Assembly: GCA_944327365.1 (NCBI GenBank)
Contig: CALVHI010000008.1
Span: forward strand, 1 to 37,591
Direction of reading: 5' to 3'
Length of the DNA stretch: 37,591 nucleotides
From: an uncultured Bacilli bacterium
GTDB taxonomy: Bacteria; Bacillota_I; Bacilli_A; RF39; UBA660
Positions 3,176 through 35,199 of the stretch are shown in pieces. The notes beneath the pieces are model-generated. The model was not told the origin of the DNA, made no database searches, and saw only the letters and a program-made list of their open reading frames with translations. The number at the start of each line of letters is the position of its first letter. Position 1 is the first letter of the stretch. The translations under genes and the position numbers were made by a program.

Positions 3176-4330
3176 TTATATATATTTATCCGTTGCTTGA
3201 GCTAACTCCTTTCTAGTTTTATTTGATAGATGTCCATATATATCAATAGTAGTAGATATATTTTTATGACCTATACGTTTACTAAATAGATAAGCTTCTT
3301 TACCTTCTGCCATCATATTTGCAACATAAGTATGTCTTAAATCGTACATTCTTATTTTTGTAACATTCGCTTTGTTGCAATAATAATAAAAATGTTTTCT
3401 TAAAGTTACATCAGAATATGGCTTTTTGGTTTGATGATTAAAAAATATTAACATATCATCCGTTATATTATATCTAAGTTCTTTTTCTAAAAAAAGTCTA
3501 TAATCATTGATACTATTTATAAGTTTTTGGGAAATATCAATTGTTCTTTCAGACTCGTATGTTTTAGTGTTAGACACAAAATCATCAGATGTTCGATCAT
3601 AATTGATAGAGTGGAGTATACTTAAAGTTTCTTTTGTAACATCTATAGATCCAAAAGTTAAAGCTCTAGTTTCTCCAATTCTATCTCCTAAAGTGAATGT
3701 AATTTCTACAAGTGTTTTAGTTAAAAAAGCTTTAGCTTTTATAGATTTATTAGAAGAATTTAAATCTGATCTTACACACTCTAAAAAATTTTTTAATTCA
3801 TCTGGTGTCCAATATTTCATTTCTGATTTTGAAACTTTATATCTATTCACGTTATCCATAGGGTTATCAATTATATAGTTTTGATCCTTACACCAATTAA
3901 AAAAAGCTTTTAATTCTTTAATAACTTCATTCTTTTGTTTTACTGTAGTATTTAAATCATCTATAAAAGAACTCCAAAATAATTCATTAGTTTTGTTAAT
4001 ATTTTTACTTATTTTATCTTTAAAAAAGGAATTATATAATTTCTCTTTTTTCTGATTAGTATTATAAGCTAATCTTTCTATATTTTTACAGTAATTCATA
4101 TATTTTTCAAAAAGTTCATCAAACCCGCCGATTCTTTTAATATCTGTTTTTTTCTTTTTTCGGGCGTTATCACGAATGTTTATAGCTTCGTCTATATCAT
4201 ATATCTTTGCACCATCTATCTCTGCTATACTAGTCTTTTCAGGCTTACTAATTGATATAACATAGTTTTTATTTTTTATATGTTGATATATGTTTTGATA
4301 CCTTGTTTTTTTATATACTTTTAAATTCAT
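3176..4330 (-). CDS. int: Tyrosine site-specific integrase
   Basis: This 384-residue tyrosine recombinase integrates and excises the prophage. The N-terminal 60 residues look like an arm-binding domain, residues of about 70-170 a SAM-like core-binding domain, and 175-384 the catalytic domain. Catalytic residues are visible: Arg217 (LGDRIGETRAL), Arg332 in YDLRHTY (the usual first His of HxxR is Tyr, a common variant), His355 (RIGHKN) and the nucleophile Tyr365 (DIYGHLS). GGAGG stands ahead of the ATG. It is the outermost prophage gene and reads toward attL, the usual arrangement. Its leader overlaps a putative antisense RNA on the plus strand. Confidence 0.95.
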   Translation of the reverse strand: MNLKVYKKTRYQNIYQHIKNKNYVISISKPEKTSIAEIDGAKIYDIDEAINIRDNARKKKKTDIKRIGGFDELFEKYMNYCKNIERLAYNTNQKKEKLYNSFFKDKISKNINKTNELFWSSFIDDLNTTVKQKNEVIKELKAFFNWCKDQNYIIDNPMDNVNRYKVSKSEMKYWTPDELKNFLECVRSDLNSSNKSIKAKAFLTKTLVEITFTLGDRIGETRALTFGSIDVTKETLSILHSINYDRTSDDFVSNTKTYESERTIDISQKLINSINDYRLFLEKELRYNITDDMLIFFNHQTKKPYSDVTLRKHFYYYCNKANVTKIRMYDLRHTYVANMMAEGKEAYLFSKRIGHKNISTTIDIYGHLSNKTRKELAQATDKYI

Positions 4331-8684: not shown

Positions 8685-9517
8685 TGGAAGAAAAATTGAA
8701 CTTAAATGAAATAGTAAAAATAGAGCAAATGCCGAAAGTATTTGAGCAACTAGAATTGATAGGTGAGTTTATAGACAATCAATTAAAAGACTTAGATAAA
8801 CTAGAATGCACAGAAGATAATAAACAAGAAGTAAAAAATAGAAGAACTGAAATTAGTAATACTTTAAATCTTCTTGAAGATAAAAGAAAAGAAATAAAAA
8901 ATAAGATTAATGAACCTTACGAAAATTTTAATAAAAAATATGAAGAAACAACGAAAACAAAGTTGCAGAATGCTTATAAGGTTTTAACAGATAAAATTAA
9001 TAAGATTGAAGATGAACAAAAACAAGTTAAGAAAAATAAAATTGAAAGTTACTTTAAAGAATATTGTGAATTTTTAAAAATTGATTTTGTAAAATTTGAA
9101 CAATTGAATTTAAACATTACTTTGAGTATTAGTGATAAAAAATTACAAGAACAAACGAAAGAATTTTTAGATAAAGTTAATGATGATTTAGCACTAATTG
9201 ATTCACAAGAACACAAAGAAGAAATCTTAATTGAATACAAGAAAAATCTAAATGTATCTTTAGCAATTACAACAGTAGTAAATCGATATAAAGAACTTGA
9301 AGAATTAAAGAAAAAGGAAGAAGAAAAACAAGCACAGAAAGACATAGAAATAGAGAATGTTCAAAAAATAGGGAAAATTTTAAATGCTCCAACAAAGGAA
9401 GTAATCGAAGCCGATAGAGAAGAAATTTATGAAATGACTTTCAAGGTTAGAGCTTCAAAGTTAAAACTAAAAGAATTAAAAAATTATTTAGAAAATGAGG
9501 GATACGATTATGAGTAA
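8681..9517 (+). CDS. DUF1351 protein of the recombination module
   Basis: The 278-residue protein is mostly long helices (about residues 15-125 and 185-230) and then a small C-terminal domain, TFKVRASKLKLKELKNYLENEGYDYE. This layout and ending match DUF1351 proteins, which in Bacillota phages sit directly upstream of RecT. Their biochemical role is unknown to me. AAAAGGAGTGG precedes two adjacent ATG codons. It overlaps recT by eight bases. Confidence 0.75.
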   Translation: MMEEKLNLNEIVKIEQMPKVFEQLELIGEFIDNQLKDLDKLECTEDNKQEVKNRRTEISNTLNLLEDKRKEIKNKINEPYENFNKKYEETTKTKLQNAYKVLTDKINKIEDEQKQVKKNKIESYFKEYCEFLKIDFVKFEQLNLNITLSISDKKLQEQTKEFLDKVNDDLALIDSQEHKEEILIEYKKNLNVSLAITTVVNRYKELEELKKKEEEKQAQKDIEIENVQKIGKILNAPTKEVIEADREEIYEMTFKVRASKLKLKELKNYLENEGYDYE

Positions 9518-10370
9518 TCAAGTCATGACAAAACCTAAATTTAGTGTTGCAATTCAAACAGATGCCTATCAAAAGCTAATTAATAACACTTTAGGAGACC
9601 AGGATAGAGCAAGAAGATTTATAGCAAGTATTTCTAGTGCAGTAGCAATCAATAGCGATTTACAAGAATGTGATGCAGGAACTGTGTTAAGTGGAGCATT
9701 ATTAGGTGAGGCATTAAATCTTAGTCCAAGCCCGCAATTAGGACAATATTACCTGGTTCCTTTTAAAGATAAAGTAAAAGGTAAAGTAGCAACTTTTATA
9801 CTTGGATATAAAGGGTATATTCAATTAGCAATTAGAAGTGGTAACTATAAAAAAATTAATGTTGTTGAAATAAAAGATGGAGAATTAGAAGAATTTAATT
9901 TGATGACAGAAGAAATTAAGGTAAATTTAATACAAGATGATGAACAAAGAGAAAATACTACAACTATAGGATATTATGCGATGTTTGAATATCTAAATGG
10001 ATTCAAAAAAGCAATATATTGGAGCAAAAATAAAATGATAAACCATGCTGATAAGTATGCTCCAGCATTTTCTAAAAAAGGATATGAATTACTTTTAGCA
10101 GGAAAAGTAAAACAAGATGATATGTGGAAATATAGTTCTCATTGGTATAAAAATTTTGATGATATGGCTAAAAAAACTATGCTTAGACAATTAATTTCTA
10201 AGTGGGGTGTAATGAGTATAGAAATGAGAGAAGCATTTGAAAAAGACGAAACAATCCAAAATACCGATGGTAGCTATAACTATATAACAGCTGATGAAAA
10301 AACAATAATAGAAACTAAAATAGAAGAAAATAATGAAGAAGTAAAAAGGGTAGACATCAATGAATTATAG
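9510..10370 (+). CDS. recT: RecT single-strand annealing protein
   Basis: RecT-family annealing proteins bind ssDNA and pair complementary strands during phage recombination. The 286 residues contain the family signatures: RFIASISSAVAINSDLQECDAGTVLSGALLGEALNLSPSPQLGQYYLVPF, where AL..EALNL and the QYYLVPF motif are diagnostic, then FILGYKGYIQLAIRSGNYKKI and WKYSSHWYKNFDDMAKKTMLRQL. The ATG at 9510 is chosen because GAGGG lies upstream and the frame before it belongs to the DUF1351 gene. The usual partner exonuclease is not present; an MBL-fold hydrolase follows instead, a pairing found in other Bacillota phages. Confidence 0.92.
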   Translation: MSNQVMTKPKFSVAIQTDAYQKLINNTLGDQDRARRFIASISSAVAINSDLQECDAGTVLSGALLGEALNLSPSPQLGQYYLVPFKDKVKGKVATFILGYKGYIQLAIRSGNYKKINVVEIKDGELEEFNLMTEEIKVNLIQDDEQRENTTTIGYYAMFEYLNGFKKAIYWSKNKMINHADKYAPAFSKKGYELLLAGKVKQDDMWKYSSHWYKNFDDMAKKTMLRQLISKWGVMSIEMREAFEKDETIQNTDGSYNYITADEKTIIETKIEENNEEVKRVDINEL

Positions 10371-11010
10371 AATTATTGAAAGTGGTAGTTTTGGAAATGC
10401 CACGATTGTTGAGAATATAATCTTGATTGATTGTGGTGTTTCTTTTAAGAAACTTAAAGATTACTATCAAGAATTAAAGTTAGTGTTACTTACTCATATT
10501 CATTCAGATCATTTTAACAAAACTACGTTAAAAAAGTTAGTAAAAGAAAGACCGACTTTAAGGTTTGGATGCTGTGAATGGCTTGTAAAGGATTTAATTG
10601 AATGTGGTGTTGATAAAAGAAATATTGATGTTTATGACAATATAAGCAGTTTTAAATATTCAGATAATTTAATAGTAACAATTTTTGATTTACAACACGA
10701 TGTATTGAACTGTGGTTATAAGCTATTTGTAAATGATAAAAAATACTTCTATGCAACAGACACAAATTCTTTAGAAAATATTGAAGCTAAAGATTATGAC
10801 ATGTATTTTATAGAGGGAAATTACGAAGATAAAAAGCAACTAGAAGAACGCAAGCAAAAACATATTGAAAAAGGAGAATATTATTACGAAGATAGAGTTG
10901 AAAAAACACATTTAAGTCAAGTACAAGCTACAGAGTGGCTAATGGAAAATATGGGCAGTAATTCGCAATATATATTCATGCATGAGCATAAGGAGAAGGT
11001 GGTTGTATGA
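10360..11010 (+). CDS. Phage MBL-fold hydrolase, recT-linked
   Basis: This 216-residue metallo-beta-lactamase-fold protein carries HxHxDH (His46, His48, Asp50, His51 in LTHIHSDHFNKT), Asp in FYATDTNS and a C-terminal FMHEH that can give the last ligand. It begins with SGSFGNATIV, a glycine turn common in this group. Its start overlaps the end of recT by 11 bases. Because it replaces the exonuclease position of RecE/RecT-type modules, it may be the nuclease partner of RecT; that is inference from genetic linkage. It is not closely similar to the host hydrolase at 2278. Confidence 0.85.
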   Translation: MNYRIIESGSFGNATIVENIILIDCGVSFKKLKDYYQELKLVLLTHIHSDHFNKTTLKKLVKERPTLRFGCCEWLVKDLIECGVDKRNIDVYDNISSFKYSDNLIVTIFDLQHDVLNCGYKLFVNDKKYFYATDTNSLENIEAKDYDMYFIEGNYEDKKQLEERKQKHIEKGEYYYEDRVEKTHLSQVQATEWLMENMGSNSQYIFMHEHKEKVVV

Positions 11011-11480
11011 CATTTACAGGTACTAAAATAGAAATACAACAATTCTTATATAAGCTAGATAAAAGCACAATATACGATTTAAAAATCGATAAACATCGAA
11101 ATAAACGCAGTTTAGATGCCAATAATTATGCTTGGCATTTAATTAACGAAATAGCGAATGCTTTAAGGCTTTCAAAAGAGGAAATATATTTTCAAATGTT
11201 AAAATCATACGGTCAACGAGATTATATAAGTATGTTGTCAAATGTAAATGCAAGTGATTATTTCAAATATTATGAAGAACAGGGAGTTTTCAAGAATAAC
11301 GGCAATACATTTAAAAGCTACTTAGTTTTTAAAGGCACTAGCCAATATGATAGCCGAGAAATGAGTGTTTTCGTAGATGGCTTAGTACAAGAAGCTAGAA
11401 ACCTGGGTATTGAAACTTTAGAGGATATAGAAATAGAAAATTTAATAAAGGAGATGGAAAAGAATGTACGAGTACGATAG
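11007..11480 (+). CDS. NinB-like recombination protein
   Basis: KHRNKRSLDANNYAWHLINEIANALRLSKEEIYFQMLKSYGQ is the conserved core of the NinB-like phage proteins, which act on ssDNA in recombination (lambda Orf/NinB). At 157 residues the length fits. A second typical stretch is FKGTSQYDSREMSVFVDGLVQEARNLGIETL. It overlaps the MBL gene by four bases (ATGA) and thus continues the recombination operon. Confidence 0.8.
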   Translation: MTFTGTKIEIQQFLYKLDKSTIYDLKIDKHRNKRSLDANNYAWHLINEIANALRLSKEEIYFQMLKSYGQRDYISMLSNVNASDYFKYYEEQGVFKNNGNTFKSYLVFKGTSQYDSREMSVFVDGLVQEARNLGIETLEDIEIENLIKEMEKNVRVR

Positions 11481-12758: not shown

Positions 12759-13067
12759 ATGAAAGAAGATTTATTAAAGATAGTAGAGCATTATGGATTA
12801 CCTAAACAGCTTAAATATTTTCAAAGTGAAGTATTTGAGTTAAACGAGGCAATAATTGAAAGAGAAATTCGTTGGGGAGACGACACATCAGTACAAGACA
12901 TAAGACCGCTTGACAATCATATAGCAGAAGAAATAGCAGACTGTTACGTCATGTTAGAACAATTTAGGCAATATTACAATATATCAAATGAAGCTTTAAT
13001 GAATGTCATGGAGCTTAAAATAGAAAGACAATTAAGGAGGATAGAAGATGAAGAAGCAATTAACTAA
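12759..13067 (+). CDS. MazG-like nucleotide pyrophosphohydrolase
   Basis: The 102-residue protein shows the two metal-binding helices of the MazG/all-alpha NTP-PPase fold: SEVFELNEAIIERE (ExxE-type) and HIAEEIADCYVMLEQFRQYYNI (EExxD). Such enzymes cleave (d)NTPs to the monophosphate and pyrophosphate; phages use them to adjust nucleotide pools or to lower ppGpp. AGGAGG lies directly ahead of the ATG. It overlaps the next gene by 20 bases. Confidence 0.75.
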   Translation: MKEDLLKIVEHYGLPKQLKYFQSEVFELNEAIIEREIRWGDDTSVQDIRPLDNHIAEEIADCYVMLEQFRQYYNISNEALMNVMELKIERQLRRIEDEEAIN

Positions 13068-13599
13068 AGAAGATGCTTTAAAAAAGATTAAAGAACTAGA
13101 AGAGTATATTGAAAGTTTAGGTAAAGAACTAAAACTATACGACGTAGTAAAATACTGTAATCATGAATGGTATGTTATCAAGATTAAAAATGATACAGTT
13201 ACACTAATGTCAAAAGATATAATTGGAACTTGTACTTATAGTGATAGCAACAGCAATGATTTTGTAGAGAGTAATTGCATAAAGATATTAAACGATTTTA
13301 TTGAAAAGTTAAACATAGATGATTTAATGCTGATGAAAGTTAATTATGATGAAGATAGAGTTACTAACAGTATTATTAGAATACCAACAATTCGAAATAT
13401 AGAAGCTATGCCTATGAGTGTTAGAAATTGTAACCAAACTTATTGGACTATGACAAGTTCTTATGGAGTAAGTGAAGATTGCAGTCTTGCTCGCATGTTC
13501 TGTGTGCATTCAAGTGGCTTCCTCGTCAGCCTCTACGTGAATCTCGCGCGGGGTGTGCGCCCAGTAATAAAAATAAAGAGAGAAAGAATAGGAGAATAA
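13048..13599 (+). CDS. DUF6273 protein with DGR-type variable C-terminus (1)
   Basis: The 183-residue protein starts with a coiled-coil helix (residues 5-32). A DUF6273 domain follows, with the landmarks WYVIKIKNDTVTLMSKD, TYWTMTSSYG and the ending GVRPVIKIK. The domain is related in layout to the C-type-lectin/formylglycine-enzyme-like folds that DGRs diversify. The last 26 codons of the domain (13489-13566) are GC-rich and align without gaps to the same region of the next gene, with differences mainly at codon positions 1 and 2. This marks it as a probable DGR target. Its place among replication genes, not tail genes, is unusual, so the ligand may be an intracellular or host factor. GGAGG precedes the ATG. 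Confidence 0.8.
   Translation: MKKQLTKEDALKKIKELEEYIESLGKELKLYDVVKYCNHEWYVIKIKNDTVTLMSKDIIGTCTYSDSNSNDFVESNCIKILNDFIEKLNIDDLMLMKVNYDEDRVTNSIIRIPTIRNIEAMPMSVRNCNQTYWTMTSSYGVSEDCSLARMFCVHSSGFLVSLYVNLARGVRPVIKIKRERIGE
13489..13566 (+). other. Putative DGR variable region VR1
   Basis: These 78 bases have 46 G/C (59%) inside a much AT-richer gene. Encoded residues run A-R-M-F-C-V-H-S-S-G to G-V-R-P-V. Against VR2 26 bases differ: 12 at codon position 1, 10 at position 2 and 4 at position 3. The 3' end GGTGTGCGCCCAGTA is identical in both copies and could be the initiation-of-mutagenic-homing side. Confidence 0.65.
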
Positions 13600-13605
13600 A
13601 AGAAT

Positions 13606-14208
13606 ATGGCAAAGAATTTATTAAATAATTATGTAGAACTAAATAGAGAAGATAAAGAAAGTTTACTAAAACTGTTAAAAGAAGATTTAAGTAATATTGA
13701 TGAAAAAGAAAAGAAGAAATATGATGAGATAAGCATTGCTGGTAATATTTATTTCGTACTTGATGTTAATGCGGAAGAACACAAAATAACATATTGCATG
13801 AAAGATGTTTTATCAAGAAAAGAAATGCTAAAGTATTTTACAGACCCTTGGTATCAAGATAGTTCTGATTATTGTGTAGGATATAACTCTGATATTAGAA
13901 ACAACAAGTTTGAAGATAGCTATGTTTATAAAGTACTAAATAGCAGTTTTAAAGAAGATAAATTGGCTGGGCTTGATGTAGTGGGTGATATCAGGTTGCT
14001 TACTAAAGAAGAGGTAGAAGAACTCGACGAAGAACATCGAAATATAAATAAGTGGTATTGGACGATGACTCCTTACAACGATATGAAAAAATTAGAGTTT
14101 GGTTCTTATGCTAGCGTGTTCTATGTGGGTTCGGCTGGCAGCCTCAACTGGCACAGCGTGCATGACAGCTATGGTGTGCGCCCAGTATTCACGCTGAAGA
14201 CTGAATAA
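13606..14208 (+). CDS. DUF6273 protein with DGR-type variable C-terminus (2)
   Basis: The 200-residue protein is a paralogue of the preceding gene product. After a helical N-terminus it shows a DUF6273 domain (NIYFVLDVNAEEHKITYCMKD, VVGDIRLLTKEEVEEL, WYWTMTPY, YGVRPVFTLK). Outside the variable end the two proteins are only distantly similar, whereas 52 of 78 bases of their variable segments are identical, including the whole 3' end. That local excess of identity plus codon-position 1/2 differences points to copying from one template repeat. AGGAG lies ten bases before the ATG, and the gene follows its partner by six bases. No reverse transcriptase lies nearby. Confidence 0.8.
   Translation: MAKNLLNNYVELNREDKESLLKLLKEDLSNIDEKEKKKYDEISIAGNIYFVLDVNAEEHKITYCMKDVLSRKEMLKYFTDPWYQDSSDYCVGYNSDIRNNKFEDSYVYKVLNSSFKEDKLAGLDVVGDIRLLTKEEVEELDEEHRNINKWYWTMTPYNDMKKLEFGSYASVFYVGSAGSLNWHSVHDSYGVRPVFTLKTE
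14110..14187 (+). other. Putative DGR variable region VR2
   Basis: These 78 bases have 46 G/C (59%). Encoded residues run A-S-V-F-Y-V-G-S-A-G-S-L-N-W-H-S-V-H-D-S-Y to G-V-R-P-V. Many variable codons have the form NNC or NNT, as expected when AAC/AAT codons of a template repeat are mutagenised at adenines. Confidence 0.65.
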
Positions 14209-14259: not shown

Positions 14260-14628
14260 ATGAATATAGAATCAAAACAACCTTATACAGTATTTAGAAA
14301 TGACTATAACCAATATACATTTTATAAACTTGGAATATCTAAGAAAGATACAACAGGCAAATGGGTAAACGGTTACATTAAGTGCAAATTTAAGAAAGAC
14401 ACAGTATTAGAAAATAAAACTAGAATTTATATAAAAAATGCATGGTTATCTTTTGATTTAAAAGAAAAAGAAACAATACCATTTATCTTCGTTTCTGAAT
14501 TTGAAACAGCAGATGAAGTGATTGACAGCAGTAAAAAATCTGCAGAGACAGTGCAGAGCGAATCAGATGACCCATTTAAAGATTTTGGCGAAGAGATAGA
14601 AATTAGAGACGAAGATTTACCATTTTAA
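14260..14628 (+). CDS. Single-stranded DNA-binding-like protein
   Basis: The 122-residue protein has a beta-rich OB-like N-terminal domain (YTVFRNDYNQYTFYKLGISKK to IPFIFVSEF). A disordered acidic tail follows that ends DDPFKDFGEEIEIRDEDLPF. The DLPF tip is the hallmark by which SSB proteins recruit partner enzymes. It probably protects ssDNA during phage replication. AGGAAGAGG precedes the ATG. The OB-fold call rests on the tail, size and context, because the N-terminal domain is not a textbook SSB. Confidence 0.7.
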   Translation: MNIESKQPYTVFRNDYNQYTFYKLGISKKDTTGKWVNGYIKCKFKKDTVLENKTRIYIKNAWLSFDLKEKETIPFIFVSEFETADEVIDSSKKSAETVQSESDDPFKDFGEEIEIRDEDLPF

Positions 14629-28965: not shown

Positions 28966-31900
28966 ATGGCTATTAACTTAGGACAAGTTGAGAAGAAAAA
29001 TAACGCAAAAAAAACCAATGGATTAAATTTAACAATTAATCGCCCACAAAACGCGCAAAGAAAAAAATGGTTTAGCTCAGGAGCATTTAATGATGGCTAT
29101 CAATTTGGAGATATTACTAAGACTGTTGCAAGTACAGCAACAGATGTAGGTTTAAATTTAGCACAAGGAGTTGTTAGAGCTGGCGAATCAATAGGAGATT
29201 TGGCAGCATATGGTGGTGCTCAAATTGTGGATTGGCTTGGAAATGAAAATTATGCAAATCAAGTAAGGCAAGCTGCCGCAGAAGATCTAACAGGGAAGAT
29301 TTTTAATAAGCCTAACGAAAATATAGATAAAAATTCTGTTTTAGGAGAAAAAGCGGATGATGTAATAAGCTCAATAGGAAATATGTATGCTCAAGGAGTT
29401 ACATCTACCAAGTTGTTAGGGACAAAAGGAAATATACCTTTAAATGTTGCAGGTAAGAAATTTAATATGCCAGTAACTTCTATTGTTAGTGGAGCCAGTA
29501 GTAATATGGCGGAAGCAGTGAATAAAGGCGCTGAAGATTGGCAAATATGGCTTAATGGAGTAACTGGTGGAATTTCAGAGGGTATCTCAGAAAGCTTATT
29601 CGGAACATTCGGAATAGGTGGCTCAGATTTAGATGATGCACTAGTCAAATCTATAACTGGTAAAATGAAAAATTCATTAGCTAAGAATCTCACCAAACTT
29701 GGCATTAAAGCAGGTGGTGAAGGAACAGAAGAAATAGTATCTTATTTATTAAATTATGCAACTAGTAATGCGATGGATTATGTTAAAAATAAAACTGGTT
29801 TAAAAGGACCAGATATCGCAGAAGAATTTAATAGTGAAGAATTATGGGATAATTTTATTGGTGGTGCTTTAGCTGCTGGATTTGGTGGCCTTCCTTCTAC
29901 GATAAATTCCATTAGAGATGTTAATAATAATTTAGATGTTACTGAAGGAACGAATCAATTTAATAATCAAAACAATAATTCAAACCAAGTAAACTTACCA
30001 CAAGCAAATTTGCAAGAATCAATAGTAAATGATGCAGTAAATGCAAGAATAGAACAAAATAATTGGCAATCAATGTTAAAAAATAATACCACTAGTGTAC
30101 CAATTAATAGCCAAAACGGAATTGTCAATGCTAATTCATATCGATACATACCAACGAGTAACATTAAGATAAATAATTTTAGAAAAAGTGCTAGTCAGTA
30201 TTTTAATAATTCCACGCAAACCCAAAACTTCTTAAATACTATTGAAAAAGTTATAGCTGATAAGGATTATGGTGTTGTATTTGATGACTCTATAGTCAAT
30301 ACAAGAGGCGAAAGTGTAAACGCACAAATATCTACTGAAAATGGCGAAACGATTATAAAACTTAATCCTAATTCTGATAGAGCAGGAGAGTTTTTACTGG
30401 TGCATGAAATCACTCACGCTATTGAAACTGATAGCATGAAACAATTAGTACTAGATTTTGCTAGCAAGAACCCAGAATTTAATCAAGCCTTAGAAAGTTT
30501 AAAACAGACTTATGGAACTAATGATGTAACCAGTGAAGTTGTTGCGGACATTTCGGGACAATTATTAGGCAATCAAGAGTTTATTAATAGCTTAACAACA
30601 CAAAATACGCCTCAATCAAAAAGCATTATAAGACAAATTTACGAAAGTATTAGAAGATTATTAAATAACTTAACCGAAAGTGGTAGATATAAGATTTTCG
30701 TTCAGGATTTGGAAGCAAAATGGAGAGAGGCTTATAGAACAACATCATCCGAGCAAACCATTAACAATTTAAATGATGGTACACAATATCATTTAAGCTC
30801 AACTGCTTTAAGCGAGGTTGTAGATACTCTACAAAATCCAAACACTGATATAAATTCGCTAGTAAAACTAAGAGATTATACTCCACAAATTTTAGTAGAA
30901 AATGGAGTAGCTGATTTACCAATGATGGTTAGAAAAGGACATTTAAGAGAAAATATATTAACAGAACAAGAAGCGCTAAACAGAGGTTTTAGTGTTAAAG
31001 GCAAACATTATCACGGGTTGGGTGTAAATATCTATTTACAAGCTATAGATTCTTTAGATAACCCTGTGGCGATTTATCAGTATACAAATAAAGGAAAATA
31101 TAATACTGATAATTATGTTGTTTTAACATCAGTGACTGACTCTAATGGCAATTATATTATAGTTCCTATTGAAATTAATAAAAGAGGTCAATATAATAGT
31201 GTGGAAATTGATATAAACAGAATTAAAACAGTATATGGTAGAGAAACCCAAAATTATTTTGATAATAAAGTTGCTAATAATGAGTTAAAAGAAATTTATT
31301 CACAAAAAAGAAGTGCTATACCTTCCGTGCAATTCGGAAGCCACAGCACTTCATCTGCTAATAATATACCACAATCAACACAAAATGTCAATTCCGATAC
31401 ATCTACTAGATATTCTATGCAAGAAGAACAAAATGATGTATCGTATCGTGGAGAACATCAACCAGATAGAATGGGTGTGGGATATGATTTAACTAGTGAA
31501 GGAATTATTGATGATAGTATTTATACTAACCCAGAATGGTATGTGGCAATGTCAGAAAAAAGTTACCAAGAAAGTTTTGAAGTCTTAAATCGTGTTAGAA
31601 ACAATCCGAACGCAGATGTAACAATATATCGAGCTACACCTAGTACTGAAATTAATCCTGGAGATTGGATTACACTATCAAAAACTTATGCTCAAGAACA
31701 TTTGGCGCGTAGTCTTGATAATAAAGGAAATGTAGTGGAAAAGGTTGTTAAAGCTAAAGATATACAATGGGCCGGCGATGATATTAATGAGTTTGGTTAC
31801 TTCCCAGACGGCGATATTCAAAATTCTATATCAAACAAAACATGGCAAGAACATCTAGAACAGAACTATCAATCTTCGGGAACTCGTATTAATATGCCAA

Positions 31901-34900
31901 ACATTAAAATCCCAACTCAACAAGATATTCAAAACACACAAAACAATAACATAAACTTACCTCCAGTTAATAGAGTATTAAACCCAGTAGAAATATCACA
32001 ATTAACTCCAGAAGATGCTAATACAAGGCCTTTCTTGCCAAAAGATCCGACTAGAGAAAGCTCATATGAAGATGCTAGTTTGGAAGAAATAGCACAGATA
32101 TTAGACGAAAAACCAGTTACTGAAAAACAAAAAGATAATAGAGCAAAAGTGTTCTTAACAACTAAGTTTTTAGATAAAGGATATTATGTTGATAAATTAG
32201 CTAGACAATACAAGAATAGAGAATTATCAGCTAAATATGACTATTCTTTACTACACAATGGAATTGCTAACGAAATAATTGGTAATGGCAGATATGATAG
32301 TGAAGGAAATAAAATTGGAAAGAGTTTATATGAAATCTTTGCACCAATAGAAGAATCCAATCTAACTGGGGAGTTTAGTGAATATTTGTATCATTTGCAT
32401 AATATTGACAGAATGAGCTTAAATAAAACTCATAGCGAGGATAATAAACCGGTTTTCGGAAAATCTGTAACTGCTGAAAGGTCACAAGAAATTGTAAACA
32501 AGTTGTTAAAGAAATATCCTGAATTTGAAGCATACGCTCAAGATATTTATGATTACAATAATGCGAATTTACAAATGCTTGTAGACAATGGAGTAATATC
32601 CAAAGAAGATATGGATTACTATAATAAGAAATATCCTCATTATGTTCCTATTATTAGAAATAACGCGAATACTCGAAATCAAATGATATATTTAGCTGGA
32701 AAGGCTGCTACTGTAGGAGTGCCAATAAAGAAAGCCAAAGGTGGAAATTCAGACATAATACCACTAAAAGAAGCAATGGCTATGAGGACTATGCAAACTG
32801 TTAATTCGGCATTAAAAAACGATTTTGGTTTAGAACTGCTCCATACGATTTACGGGGAGAATACAAACGAAGTTGTAGAAACGGCACAATCTCTTGACGA
32901 AACCATAGACGAAATGGATTCCGCAAAAATTGTAGAGCCAAAAACGTCAGATAGGGAAGCAACTTTTACTGTATATCAAAACGGCAAAAAAATAACCATG
33001 GAAATATCAGATGAAATATATGAAGCTTTAACTCCAAGAAAAACTGGAACTATTAAACCTTTACATGCGTTTAACAACTTTAGACGTGCTGTATTAACGG
33101 AATATAATCCTGCATTTGTGATTTCTAATATATTAAAAGACGTTCAAGACGGTTCTTATAACTCAAAACACCCAGCTCAATTTTTAAAAAATATTCCTGA
33201 AGCTACATCCCAATTAAAAAATAAAGGCAAGTTATATCAACTATATATAGCAAATGGCGGAGGGCAAGATACATATTTTAATTATGACAGCGGAACAAAT
33301 GTAAAAAGTAAGAGAAAATACGTTCCAACAGGAAATAAACTTTTGGATACAATAAAATTGCCATTGAAAATACTGGATAAAATTAGTGATATAAATCAAG
33401 CTGTTGAAATGACTCCGCGATTGGCGGAATTTATCGCATCATTAGAGGCAGGAGATAGTATCCAAACTGCCATGTATAACGCTCAAGAAATTACTACTAA
33501 TTTCAAACGTGGTGGTGATTTTACAAAAACGTTAGACAAAAATGGTGTAACATTCTTAAATGCTGGAACACAAGGTTTTTTAAAGCAAATAAGAAATGTA
33601 CAAGACGCTAAGGTCAATGGGCTTAGAGGCATAGCTAATTTAGGAGTAAGAGCATTGTTTTGGGGAACAAGTTGGATGCTACTTAACGATTTAATTTGGG
33701 GCGATGATGAAGATTACGAAGAACTGTCAGATTATGTAAAAAACAATTATTATATTATTGGAAAATATGGAGATGGAAACTTTATTAGAATACCAAAAGG
33801 AAGAGTTGTAAGTATCATTCAAAAGTCGTTTGAAGAGGTTTGGGATGGATTAACAGGAAAAGATGTTGATATAGACCAATTAGCAGATTTAGTACAAAAT
33901 CAAGTATTACCATCAGACCCAACCGAAAATAATATTTTTTCTCCATTGGTTCAAGCTTTCGGGAGTGAGAACGGAGAGGCGTGGTATGGCGGAGACCTAG
34001 TTCCTAGTAGATTGCAAGACTTACCAGTGGCAGAACAATATGATGAAAGTACGGATAGTTTTAGTATTTGGTTAGGAAATTTATTAAATGTAAGCCCCTA
34101 TAAAATAAATTATGTTTTAGACCAATATAGCGGAGTAATAGGAGACTTGACATTGCCATATCTTACAAAAGAAGCTGAGACTAGCGGAATAATCGCTCCT
34201 CTTAAAGATAAATTTACAACTAATAGTACACTCAACAATCAAAATGCTAGTGATTTCTATGATTTAAAGGATGAATTACAAAAGCAGTCAAACAGTTCTA
34301 AAGCAACTGATGAAGATAAGCTTAAATATAAATATATCAATTATATAAATTCTCAAACTAGTGAGCTTTATAAACAGAAAAGGGAAATTCAAAATTCTTC
34401 GTTATCTGATGATGAAAAAATGTCTAAAATTAAAGAAATTCAAAATCAAATCAATGACTTAACAAAGACAGGCATAAATAATTACGAGAATGTAGAAACC
34501 TTTGAAAATTACGGAAAAGTTGCTGATGTAGAATTTTACTTAAATTCCGAAAACGAATGGGAAAGAGTAAAAGAAGAGGAACAAGCAAAGTTGGAAAAGT
34601 TAAGATTGACATCAGAAGAAAAGAACACATATTTCGAAGCGAAAGTGGAATCTGGAATAATAAGAAATGATGATAGCAAAGACAGTACGGTAAAACATCA
34701 GGAAATTTCTAATGTAATACTCGGAACTGGATTTGATGATGAAAAAATAGCTTATCTATATTCAAGATATTATTCTTCCGAAGAAACACTCAATAATCTG
34801 ATAGAAATGCGAATTCCAATTAAAGAATTTATTAAATTCGATAGCCAAGAATTTGAAGGTGACTACAATACTAGAACAGGTCAAACAATTAGTGGATCAC

Positions 34901-35199
34901 GTAAGAATAAAGTTATTCAGTATGTTAATTCTCTAAATCTTAGCATACCTCAGAAGGCTATCTTAATCAAAATGGAGTACAATTCTTATGATAATTATAA
35001 TAATCAAATTGTAAATTATATTAATAATCTAGATAAAACAGCGAATGATAAAAAAGTGTTGTTGAAAACTATCGGCTTTGATAATTTTAATAAAGACGTG
35101 GTGGAATATATCAATTCTCAAAATATATCAATTGAAGAAAAAGAGGAAAAGTTGAAGGAATTAGGCTTTACAGTAAGGAACGGGAGAGTGTATTGGTAA
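28966..35199 (+). CDS. Giant polyvalent virion protein: protease, nuclease-like, ADP-ribosyltransferase-like and LPD38-like regions
   Basis: The 2077-residue protein is probably ejected with the DNA. Residues 45-330 have glycine/alanine-rich amphipathic segments. Residues 455-520 hold a metalloprotease motif (HEITH, 480-484). Residues 625-800 match the PBECR-type nuclease domains of phage MuF/polyvalent proteins (ILVENGVADLPMMVRKGHL, KHYHGLGVNIYLQAIDSLDNPVAIYQYT). Residues 825-951 look like an ART-PolyVal ADP-ribosyltransferase (DVTIYRATPSTEINPGDWITLSKTYAQEH to INEFGYFPDG). Residues 1045-1580 resemble large-polyvalent-protein domain LPD38 (FRRAVLTEYNPAFVISNILKD, TTNFKRGGDFTKTLDKNGVTFLNAGTQGF), followed by a hydrophobic helix. 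The C-terminal third is helical with short repeats (YVNSLNLS, YINNLDKT, YINSQNIS). Family names are from memory of the motifs. Confidence 0.75.
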   Translation: MAINLGQVEKKNNAKKTNGLNLTINRPQNAQRKKWFSSGAFNDGYQFGDITKTVASTATDVGLNLAQGVVRAGESIGDLAAYGGAQIVDWLGNENYANQVRQAAAEDLTGKIFNKPNENIDKNSVLGEKADDVISSIGNMYAQGVTSTKLLGTKGNIPLNVAGKKFNMPVTSIVSGASSNMAEAVNKGAEDWQIWLNGVTGGISEGISESLFGTFGIGGSDLDDALVKSITGKMKNSLAKNLTKLGIKAGGEGTEEIVSYLLNYATSNAMDYVKNKTGLKGPDIAEEFNSEELWDNFIGGALAAGFGGLPSTINSIRDVNNNLDVTEGTNQFNNQNNNSNQVNLPQANLQESIVNDAVNARIEQNNWQSMLKNNTTSVPINSQNGIVNANSYRYIPTSNIKINNFRKSASQYFNNSTQTQNFLNTIEKVIADKDYGVVFDDSIVNTRGESVNAQISTENGETIIKLNPNSDRAGEFLLVHEITHAIETDSMKQLVLDFASKNPEFNQALESLKQTYGTNDVTSEVVADISGQLLGNQEFINSLTTQNTPQSKSIIRQIYESIRRLLNNLTESGRYKIFVQDLEAKWREAYRTTSSEQTINNLNDGTQYHLSSTALSEVVDTLQNPNTDINSLVKLRDYTPQILVENGVADLPMMVRKGHLRENILTEQEALNRGFSVKGKHYHGLGVNIYLQAIDSLDNPVAIYQYTNKGKYNTDNYVVLTSVTDSNGNYIIVPIEINKRGQYNSVEIDINRIKTVYGRETQNYFDNKVANNELKEIYSQKRSAIPSVQFGSHSTSSANNIPQSTQNVNSDTSTRYSMQEEQNDVSYRGEHQPDRMGVGYDLTSEGIIDDSIYTNPEWYVAMSEKSYQESFEVLNRVRNNPNADVTIYRATPSTEINPGDWITLSKTYAQEHLARSLDNKGNVVEKVVKAKDIQWAGDDINEFGYFPDGDIQNSISNKTWQEHLEQNYQSSGTRINMPNIKIPTQQDIQNTQNNNINLPPVNRVLNPVEISQLTPEDANTRPFLPKDPTRESSYEDASLEEIAQILDEKPVTEKQKDNRAKVFLTTKFLDKGYYVDKLARQYKNRELSAKYDYSLLHNGIANEIIGNGRYDSEGNKIGKSLYEIFAPIEESNLTGEFSEYLYHLHNIDRMSLNKTHSEDNKPVFGKSVTAERSQEIVNKLLKKYPEFEAYAQDIYDYNNANLQMLVDNGVISKEDMDYYNKKYPHYVPIIRNNANTRNQMIYLAGKAATVGVPIKKAKGGNSDIIPLKEAMAMRTMQTVNSALKNDFGLELLHTIYGENTNEVVETAQSLDETIDEMDSAKIVEPKTSDREATFTVYQNGKKITMEISDEIYEALTPRKTGTIKPLHAFNNFRRAVLTEYNPAFVISNILKDVQDGSYNSKHPAQFLKNIPEATSQLKNKGKLYQLYIANGGGQDTYFNYDSGTNVKSKRKYVPTGNKLLDTIKLPLKILDKISDINQAVEMTPRLAEFIASLEAGDSIQTAMYNAQEITTNFKRGGDFTKTLDKNGVTFLNAGTQGFLKQIRNVQDAKVNGLRGIANLGVRALFWGTSWMLLNDLIWGDDEDYEELSDYVKNNYYIIGKYGDGNFIRIPKGRVVSIIQKSFEEVWDGLTGKDVDIDQLADLVQNQVLPSDPTENNIFSPLVQAFGSENGEAWYGGDLVPSRLQDLPVAEQYDESTDSFSIWLGNLLNVSPYKINYVLDQYSGVIGDLTLPYLTKEAETSGIIAPLKDKFTTNSTLNNQNASDFYDLKDELQKQSNSSKATDEDKLKYKYINYINSQTSELYKQKREIQNSSLSDDEKMSKIKEIQNQINDLTKTGINNYENVETFENYGKVADVEFYLNSENEWERVKEEEQAKLEKLRLTSEEKNTYFEAKVESGIIRNDDSKDSTVKHQEISNVILGTGFDDEKIAYLYSRYYSSEETLNNLIEMRIPIKEFIKFDSQEFEGDYNTRTGQTISGSRKNKVIQYVNSLNLSIPQKAILIKMEYNSYDNYNNQIVNYINNLDKTANDKKVLLKTIGFDNFNKDVVEYINSQNISIEEKEEKLKELGFTVRNGRVYW

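Follow-up and report, generated by a model that had tools for sequence, protein, structure and literature searches.

This locus raises the question of what diversifies the 3' ends of two adjacent prophage genes in an uncultured Bacilli bacterium, and where the machinery for doing so resides. The window, by which we mean the whole stretch of 37,591 nucleotides analysed here, is the entire contig C8 of a 1.03-Mb, 56-contig metagenome-assembled genome (MAG; estimated to be 86.5% complete) of an uncultured Bacilli bacterium near Candidatus Caccenecus. Each of the two genes, here called gene 1 and gene 2, ends in a 78-bp segment with the features of a variable region (VR) of a diversity-generating retroelement (DGR), a system in which a reverse transcriptase (RT) copies a template repeat (TR) with errors at adenines. 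On the sequence comparisons described below, the two genes are very likely targets of a DGR that is owned by the host and acts on them in trans.

Two prophage genes end in DGR-type variable regions

The VR1 core of gene 1 (78 bp; 13489..13566, + strand) and the VR2 core of gene 2 (78 bp; 14110..14187, + strand) align without gaps and differ at 26 of 78 positions, of which 12, 10 and 4 fall at codon positions 1, 2 and 3, respectively; the rewritten stretch of gene 1 may begin further 5' than this core. Each core is 59% GC and each ends in the invariant sequence GGTGTGCGCCCAGTA, which resembles an initiation of mutagenic homing (IMH) element and lies at 13552..13566 (+ strand) in VR1, with CCAGTA where the TRs have CCAATA, and at 14173..14187 (+ strand) in VR2, as seen from the comparison of the VRs. 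These values agree with those given by an earlier, sequence-only reading of the window. The likeness of VR1 and VR2 is not due to chance, because the 78-bp unit recurs about 20 times over many contigs of the genome. About 15 of these copies terminate host surface-type genes; the complete host VR genes encode products of 440-590 aa that end in YWTMSP...GVRPVLNLDAG, and most of these proteins are hydrophobic over an N-terminal stretch, as judged by eye. Four further copies, the TR units, are intergenic and A-rich at the variable codons.

Homologues of the window genes were found in four other genomes (G004, G007, G003 and G005), in all cases amid phage-type genes. Gene 1 has homologues in G007 (69% identity), G003 (63%) and G005 (54%), while gene 2 has one in the G004 prophage (45%), and all four prophages have GC-rich VRs inside AT-rich genes. 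In the gene-1 family, compared across four prophages, codon position 3 is richest in differences outside the VR (e.g. 32/21/51 at positions 1/2/3), and within the VR the differences fall mostly at codon positions 1 and 2 (e.g. 10/11/3). Among paralogous VRs, likewise, the third codon positions are kept as C, T or G and positions 1 and 2 vary. The GC content of the VRs of the phage target genes is 51-59%, as against 26-31% in the remainder of the same genes.

Templates and reverse transcriptase lie on the host chromosome

Three TR units of this genome, at C2:5860-6126, C7:6192-6454 and C9:441-704, are complete and structured; common to them are the leader GGTTAATCT, preceded by a -10-like element, and a conserved 3' sequence of about 140 nt. 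The fourth unit, at C2:25482-25740 (C2:25536), looks like a hybrid: its promoter, leader and template core are those of a TR, but its 3' end, GTATTAAATCTGGATGCTGG, is of the VR type, as though target-gene sequence had been written over part of a TR. Many adenines have been lost from the TRs of this genome.

The genome has one REVERSE TRANSCRIPTASE (RT), located on contig C27 (RVT_1, 68 bits). Its frame is intact (375 aa), and its best match among solved structures is 8ub7 (4.5e-22), which we take to be the bRT of the Bordetella phage BPP-1 DGR, with group II RTs trailing at 4e-12; by these matches it is assigned to the DGR type. In sister species, two ORFs upstream of the RT, both with intact frames, match bAvd (avd; PF22296, 4e-09, 37.4 bits, just under the cut-off of 40) and MutS domain I (MutS-like, MSL; PF01624 MutS_I, 3.7e-05, over the cut-off), while a search of the PDB with the Avd profile returned no match. 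RT relatives that are at least 74% identical, some of them fragments, are present in 24 of the 36 genomes of the genus, and the named ones belong to Candidatus Caccenecus avistercoris and to uncultured Bacilli MAGs. Within the genus, G011, G013, G014, G003 and G029 have a second RT that is more distant (44-46% identical).

The sequence-only reading had proposed looking for a template repeat next to a DGR RT in the host and phage genomes. Both were found and both lie on the host chromosome; the assembled phage has neither, and the TRs lie apart from the RT, contig C27 carrying no TR unit.

Variable regions differ from templates at adenines

When 56 TRs were compared with 31 VRs, the variation among VRs fell at the A positions of the TR consensus. 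At position 76, 56/56 TRs have A and 31/31 VRs have G, a fixity that is partly by construction, as units were sorted into TR and VR by the position-76 base together with a downstream TCC (the C2:25536 hybrid being counted as a VR); the two classes also differ in context, TRs being intergenic and VRs lying at gene ends. The 3' initiation element (IMH/IMH*) reads CCAGTA in VRs and CCAATATCC in TRs, and its adenines are unvaried. Compared with an idealised template (the genus TR consensus, with codon 5 set by hand to AAT), the 14 VRs of this genome differ at 203 of 364 A sites (56%) as against 38 of 686 other sites (6%), for which the Fisher P of 5e-75 is indicative only, since the sites are not independent. 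Within the TRs themselves, A columns vary at 28% and the others at 11%.

The relation is closest where a VR can be paired with templates of its own genome. Over 45 nt, the VR of locus L285 in G030 shows eight mismatches at A and none elsewhere to a TR of its own genome. For L285, L283 and L268 in G030 and for L284 and L353 in G017, the TRs of the same genome fitted better than all 300 equal-sized template sets drawn from other genomes, and the well-fitting VRs of these two genomes have 0-3 non-A mismatches over 45 nt to a particular diversified template of their own genome.

In the window, VR1 from position 27 onward differs from the own-genome unit C2:25536 at template A only. The AGC TAT codons of VR2 are supplied by the TR on C7, and a TR of a sister species (G008) with AAC TGG AAC fits the remainder of VR2, with changes at template A only. 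The stretch in which GCG CGG stands against AGC TAT, judged earlier to be more than a single template could explain, is accounted for by different templates (ACG CGG and AGC TAT). The proposal that both genes were diversified from one template repeat is not supported, as the genome has at least four distinct TR units and VR1 and VR2 need different ones. The assignment of both segments as DGR-type VRs is borne out by the DGR-type RT, the avd and MutS-like ORFs, the TRs, the adenine-specific divergence and the fixed 3' difference between VR and TR. The outcome named by the earlier reading as refuting it did not materialise: templates and RT are present, and the differences are not spread evenly over codon positions.

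The template is carried by a structured RNA family

Each TR unit has the organization of a non-coding RNA gene, in which a -10-like element and a leader come before the template and a conserved, structured 3' domain follows it, and the leader GGTTAATCT pairs with AGATTAACC located 3' of the template, so that the template is enclosed. The -10-like element precedes 62 of 76 leaders, compared to 16% of random places. An alignment of 63 TR units yielded six helices, one of which spans the template to link the leader with the 3' domain. In these units 96.3% of the pairs are formed, a value biased upward because the structure had been derived from these units themselves; the stronger evidence is that 29 of the 39 pairs change on both sides. 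The covariation score was 0.331, compared to 0.163 in shuffled alignments (0/500 reached the observed score) and at most 0.121 when the structure was slid along the sequence, and the slid versions were only 34-51% paired. The RNA had no match in Rfam.

The TR 3' flank was detected in 33 of the 36 genomes of the genus (E < 1e-4), with up to 25 copies in each, and tandem arrays of 12, 5 and 4 units occur in G030, G017 and G026, respectively, at a spacing of 250-370 bp. The 12-unit array (L179; G030:C20:21500-26118) contains 11 distinct templates from which most adenines have been lost, like a library of worn templates. In outgroups whose RT is 45-55% identical, the TR RNA immediately precedes the avd or MSL gene and the RT (loci L118, L122, L123 and L125), and this adjacency ties the TR RNA to the RT; L118 has four tandem TR units with differing templates. 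A search of 68 other genera of the family gave weaker matches in 10 sampled genomes, which may be TRs or VRs. Some TRs at L072, L079, L194 and L198 (G001, G010 and G009) have GGTGACCTGTCAAGCGCCCAACAGGCAATATCC or a close variant in place of GGTGTGCGCCCAATATCC, and TRs of this type have an additional hairpin in the initiation element. A scan of IMG/VR found the TR 3' element in no viral contig; the VR element was found in 56 contigs, none of which had VR-like upstream sequence.

A proposed host-owned DGR acting in trans and its alternatives

In the mechanism that we propose, an RT-Avd complex would copy the TR RNA, making errors at A, and the resulting cDNA would take the place of the VR in any host or phage gene with the GTGTGCGYCCAGTA element at its end; reverse transcription of the TR RNA and retrohoming in trans are here inferred from the sequence relations. 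Different templates could serve different targets or the same one, in which case the templates themselves would be a source of variety. The phage would bring the target genes alone and rely on the RT and templates of the host, and the diversified C-terminus probably provides a cytoplasmic early protein with a surface for binding. Predicted structures of phage and host targets were unusable (pLDDT 32 and 34). As a tentative extension, which we regard as a real possibility and no stronger, hypermutation may have two tiers: a library of TR RNAs, itself rewritten at A and multiplying in tandem, would feed a single RT, which would diversify a whole set of surface proteins, and early genes of temperate phages would join in by means of the target element alone.

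Several observations weigh against a host-owned system at work in this genome. The avd gene (G000:C27, L003:7071-7370) lacks 14 nt that sister species have and is thereby frameshifted, with an ORF of 55 aa remaining; barring an assembly error, this species may therefore have an inactive system. VR1 position 24 and VR2 positions 14 and 42 are left unexplained by the four TRs of this genome, and position 24 of VR1 is accounted for by none of the TRs compared; at a completeness of 86.5%, the MAG may lack some of its own templates. In other genomes, many VRs are without a well-fitting donor among the TRs compared, the presence of RT and that of TR are imperfectly matched across the genus, and the right end of the window prophage is unassembled. 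The RT copies of G006, G008 and G012 are interrupted by several stop codons, which indicates ongoing loss of the system in some species. The frameshifted avd, these broken RTs and the adenines lost from the TRs here would also fit a relic, in which the VRs were diversified earlier by the same system and that system is now inactive here. Such a history, which agrees with the trans-acting host DGR on the nature of the VRs, is conceivable, though we think it unlikely given that the RT frame is intact, that three TR units are complete with their structure, that avd and MSL frames are intact in sister species, and that in a MAG a deletion of 14 nt may be an artefact.

The other alternatives place the source of variation elsewhere. 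If the DGR belonged to the phage and acted in cis, its RT and TR would lie in the unassembled part of the prophage and the likeness to host VRs would reflect shared ancestry; the window does stop inside phage genes at a tandem repeat, and phage-borne DGRs are common (PMC11792537). However, the G004 prophage lies on a 278-kb contig (C11), yet G004 has its sole RT match elsewhere, on contig C50. In addition, no TR unit was found in the window or the four homologous prophage stretches, which gave only VR-type partial matches, and the IMG/VR result given above points the same way, making a cis-acting element very improbable. On the simplest reading, the phages contribute only targets and use the host system. 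Recombination of TR units into VRs as silent DNA cassettes, by gene conversion and without reverse transcription, would suit the tandem arrays of 4-12 different units, the C2:25482-25740 hybrid with its TR 5' part and VR 3' end, and the template-specific non-A stretches that occur in VRs. Gene conversion of this kind would have no preference for template adenines, in contrast to the 203/364 against 38/686 observed, and neither the covarying RNA structure around the template nor the adjacency of the TR RNA to avd-RT in outgroups suits it; as the only process it is highly unlikely, although gene conversion may act additionally. Ordinary diversifying selection on a lectin-like C-terminus, with no DGR at all, is barely credible: most changes do alter amino acids, but third positions are kept as C, T or G across paralogues while positions 1 and 2 vary, the VRs stand out in GC content within the same phage genes, and dedicated TR genes exist.

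Comparison with known systems

Like the BPP-1 DGR (bRT, Avd, TR and VR), the system has an RT whose nearest solved RT is 8ub7, an Avd-like protein, a TR with A at variable sites, a VR at the C-terminal end of the target, and a TR/VR difference in the 3' initiation element. It is unlike BPP-1 in having many separate TR RNA genes distant from the RT, a leader-to-3'-domain helix that encloses the template, and targets that comprise many host genes as well as prophage early genes. In antigenic variation by silent cassettes, of the pilS or vls type, arrays of differing donor cassettes feed expressed genes. The arrays of different donors described here are similar, but the donors are structured RNA genes that are linked to an RT and to adenine-specific change.

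Thiohalocapsa PB-PSB1 has 15 targets and 21 VRs in nine DGR loci, and trans activity was inferred for some of these loci (PMC10907252). The present system resembles it in the number of targets per genome and differs in having one close RT and many TR genes without a neighbouring RT. Surveys have described DGRs with more than one VR and, occasionally, more than one TR (PMC6642488, PMC8144416), and 79.9% of multi-VR DGRs have one TR (PMC6642488). In the open literature, which leaves subscription papers and preprints mostly outside its coverage, we found no published description of tandem or dispersed structured TR genes. Repeats were sought around the RT in one of the surveys (PMC8144416), so that dispersed TRs would escape it, and systems of this kind would be missed by DGR surveys that look near the RT. 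The anatomy described here departs from the textbook arrangement of one template beside the RT, with many separate TR genes that are dispersed and, in sister species, also tandem. The TR RNA family is a new structured RNA that marks DGR templates by itself, and the system suggests how a single RT can serve many templates and targets. It would also be a case in which a phage has a cytoplasmic early protein diversified by a system of its host, which makes the function of host and phage targets testable.

Prophage genes around the two targets

The C8 prophage encodes an integrase, RecT, NinB/Orf, an SSB-like protein, terminase and portal. The integrase gene (3176..4330, - strand; PF00589, 1.3e-14) lies near the left border of the prophage; an RVT_1 match within it (19 bits, under the cut-off) was taken as spurious. 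A recombination operon (9495..11480, + strand) consists of RecT (9495-10370), a metal-dependent hydrolase (10360-11010) and NinB/Orf (11007-11480), which places the VR genes in the early region and not in the tail region. Gene 1 (13048..13599, + strand; 183 aa), a predicted DGR target with a C-terminal VR, has an upstream part that is conserved in sister-species prophages. Gene 2 (13606..14208, + strand; 200 aa), likewise a predicted target, has a DUF6273-like C-terminus (phrog_9958, 5.7e-11). Both had been described as tandem DUF6273 genes; with PF19789 (cut-off 23.5 bits) only gene 2 passes, narrowly, at 24.0 bits, and gene 1 had no match. Protein searches with both genes against viral contigs and a phage collection gave no matches. 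The adjoining gene (14260..14628, + strand) encodes an SSB-like protein (phrog_378, weak, E 0.0023), and such a gene also adjoins the VR gene in the G004, G007 and G005 prophages. Further downstream, positions 28966-35199 encode a phage protein of 2077 aa with MuF C-terminal and LPD38 domains (a polyvalent protein), and an AAACG tandem repeat occupies the contig end (37510-37591), where the prophage assembly breaks off.
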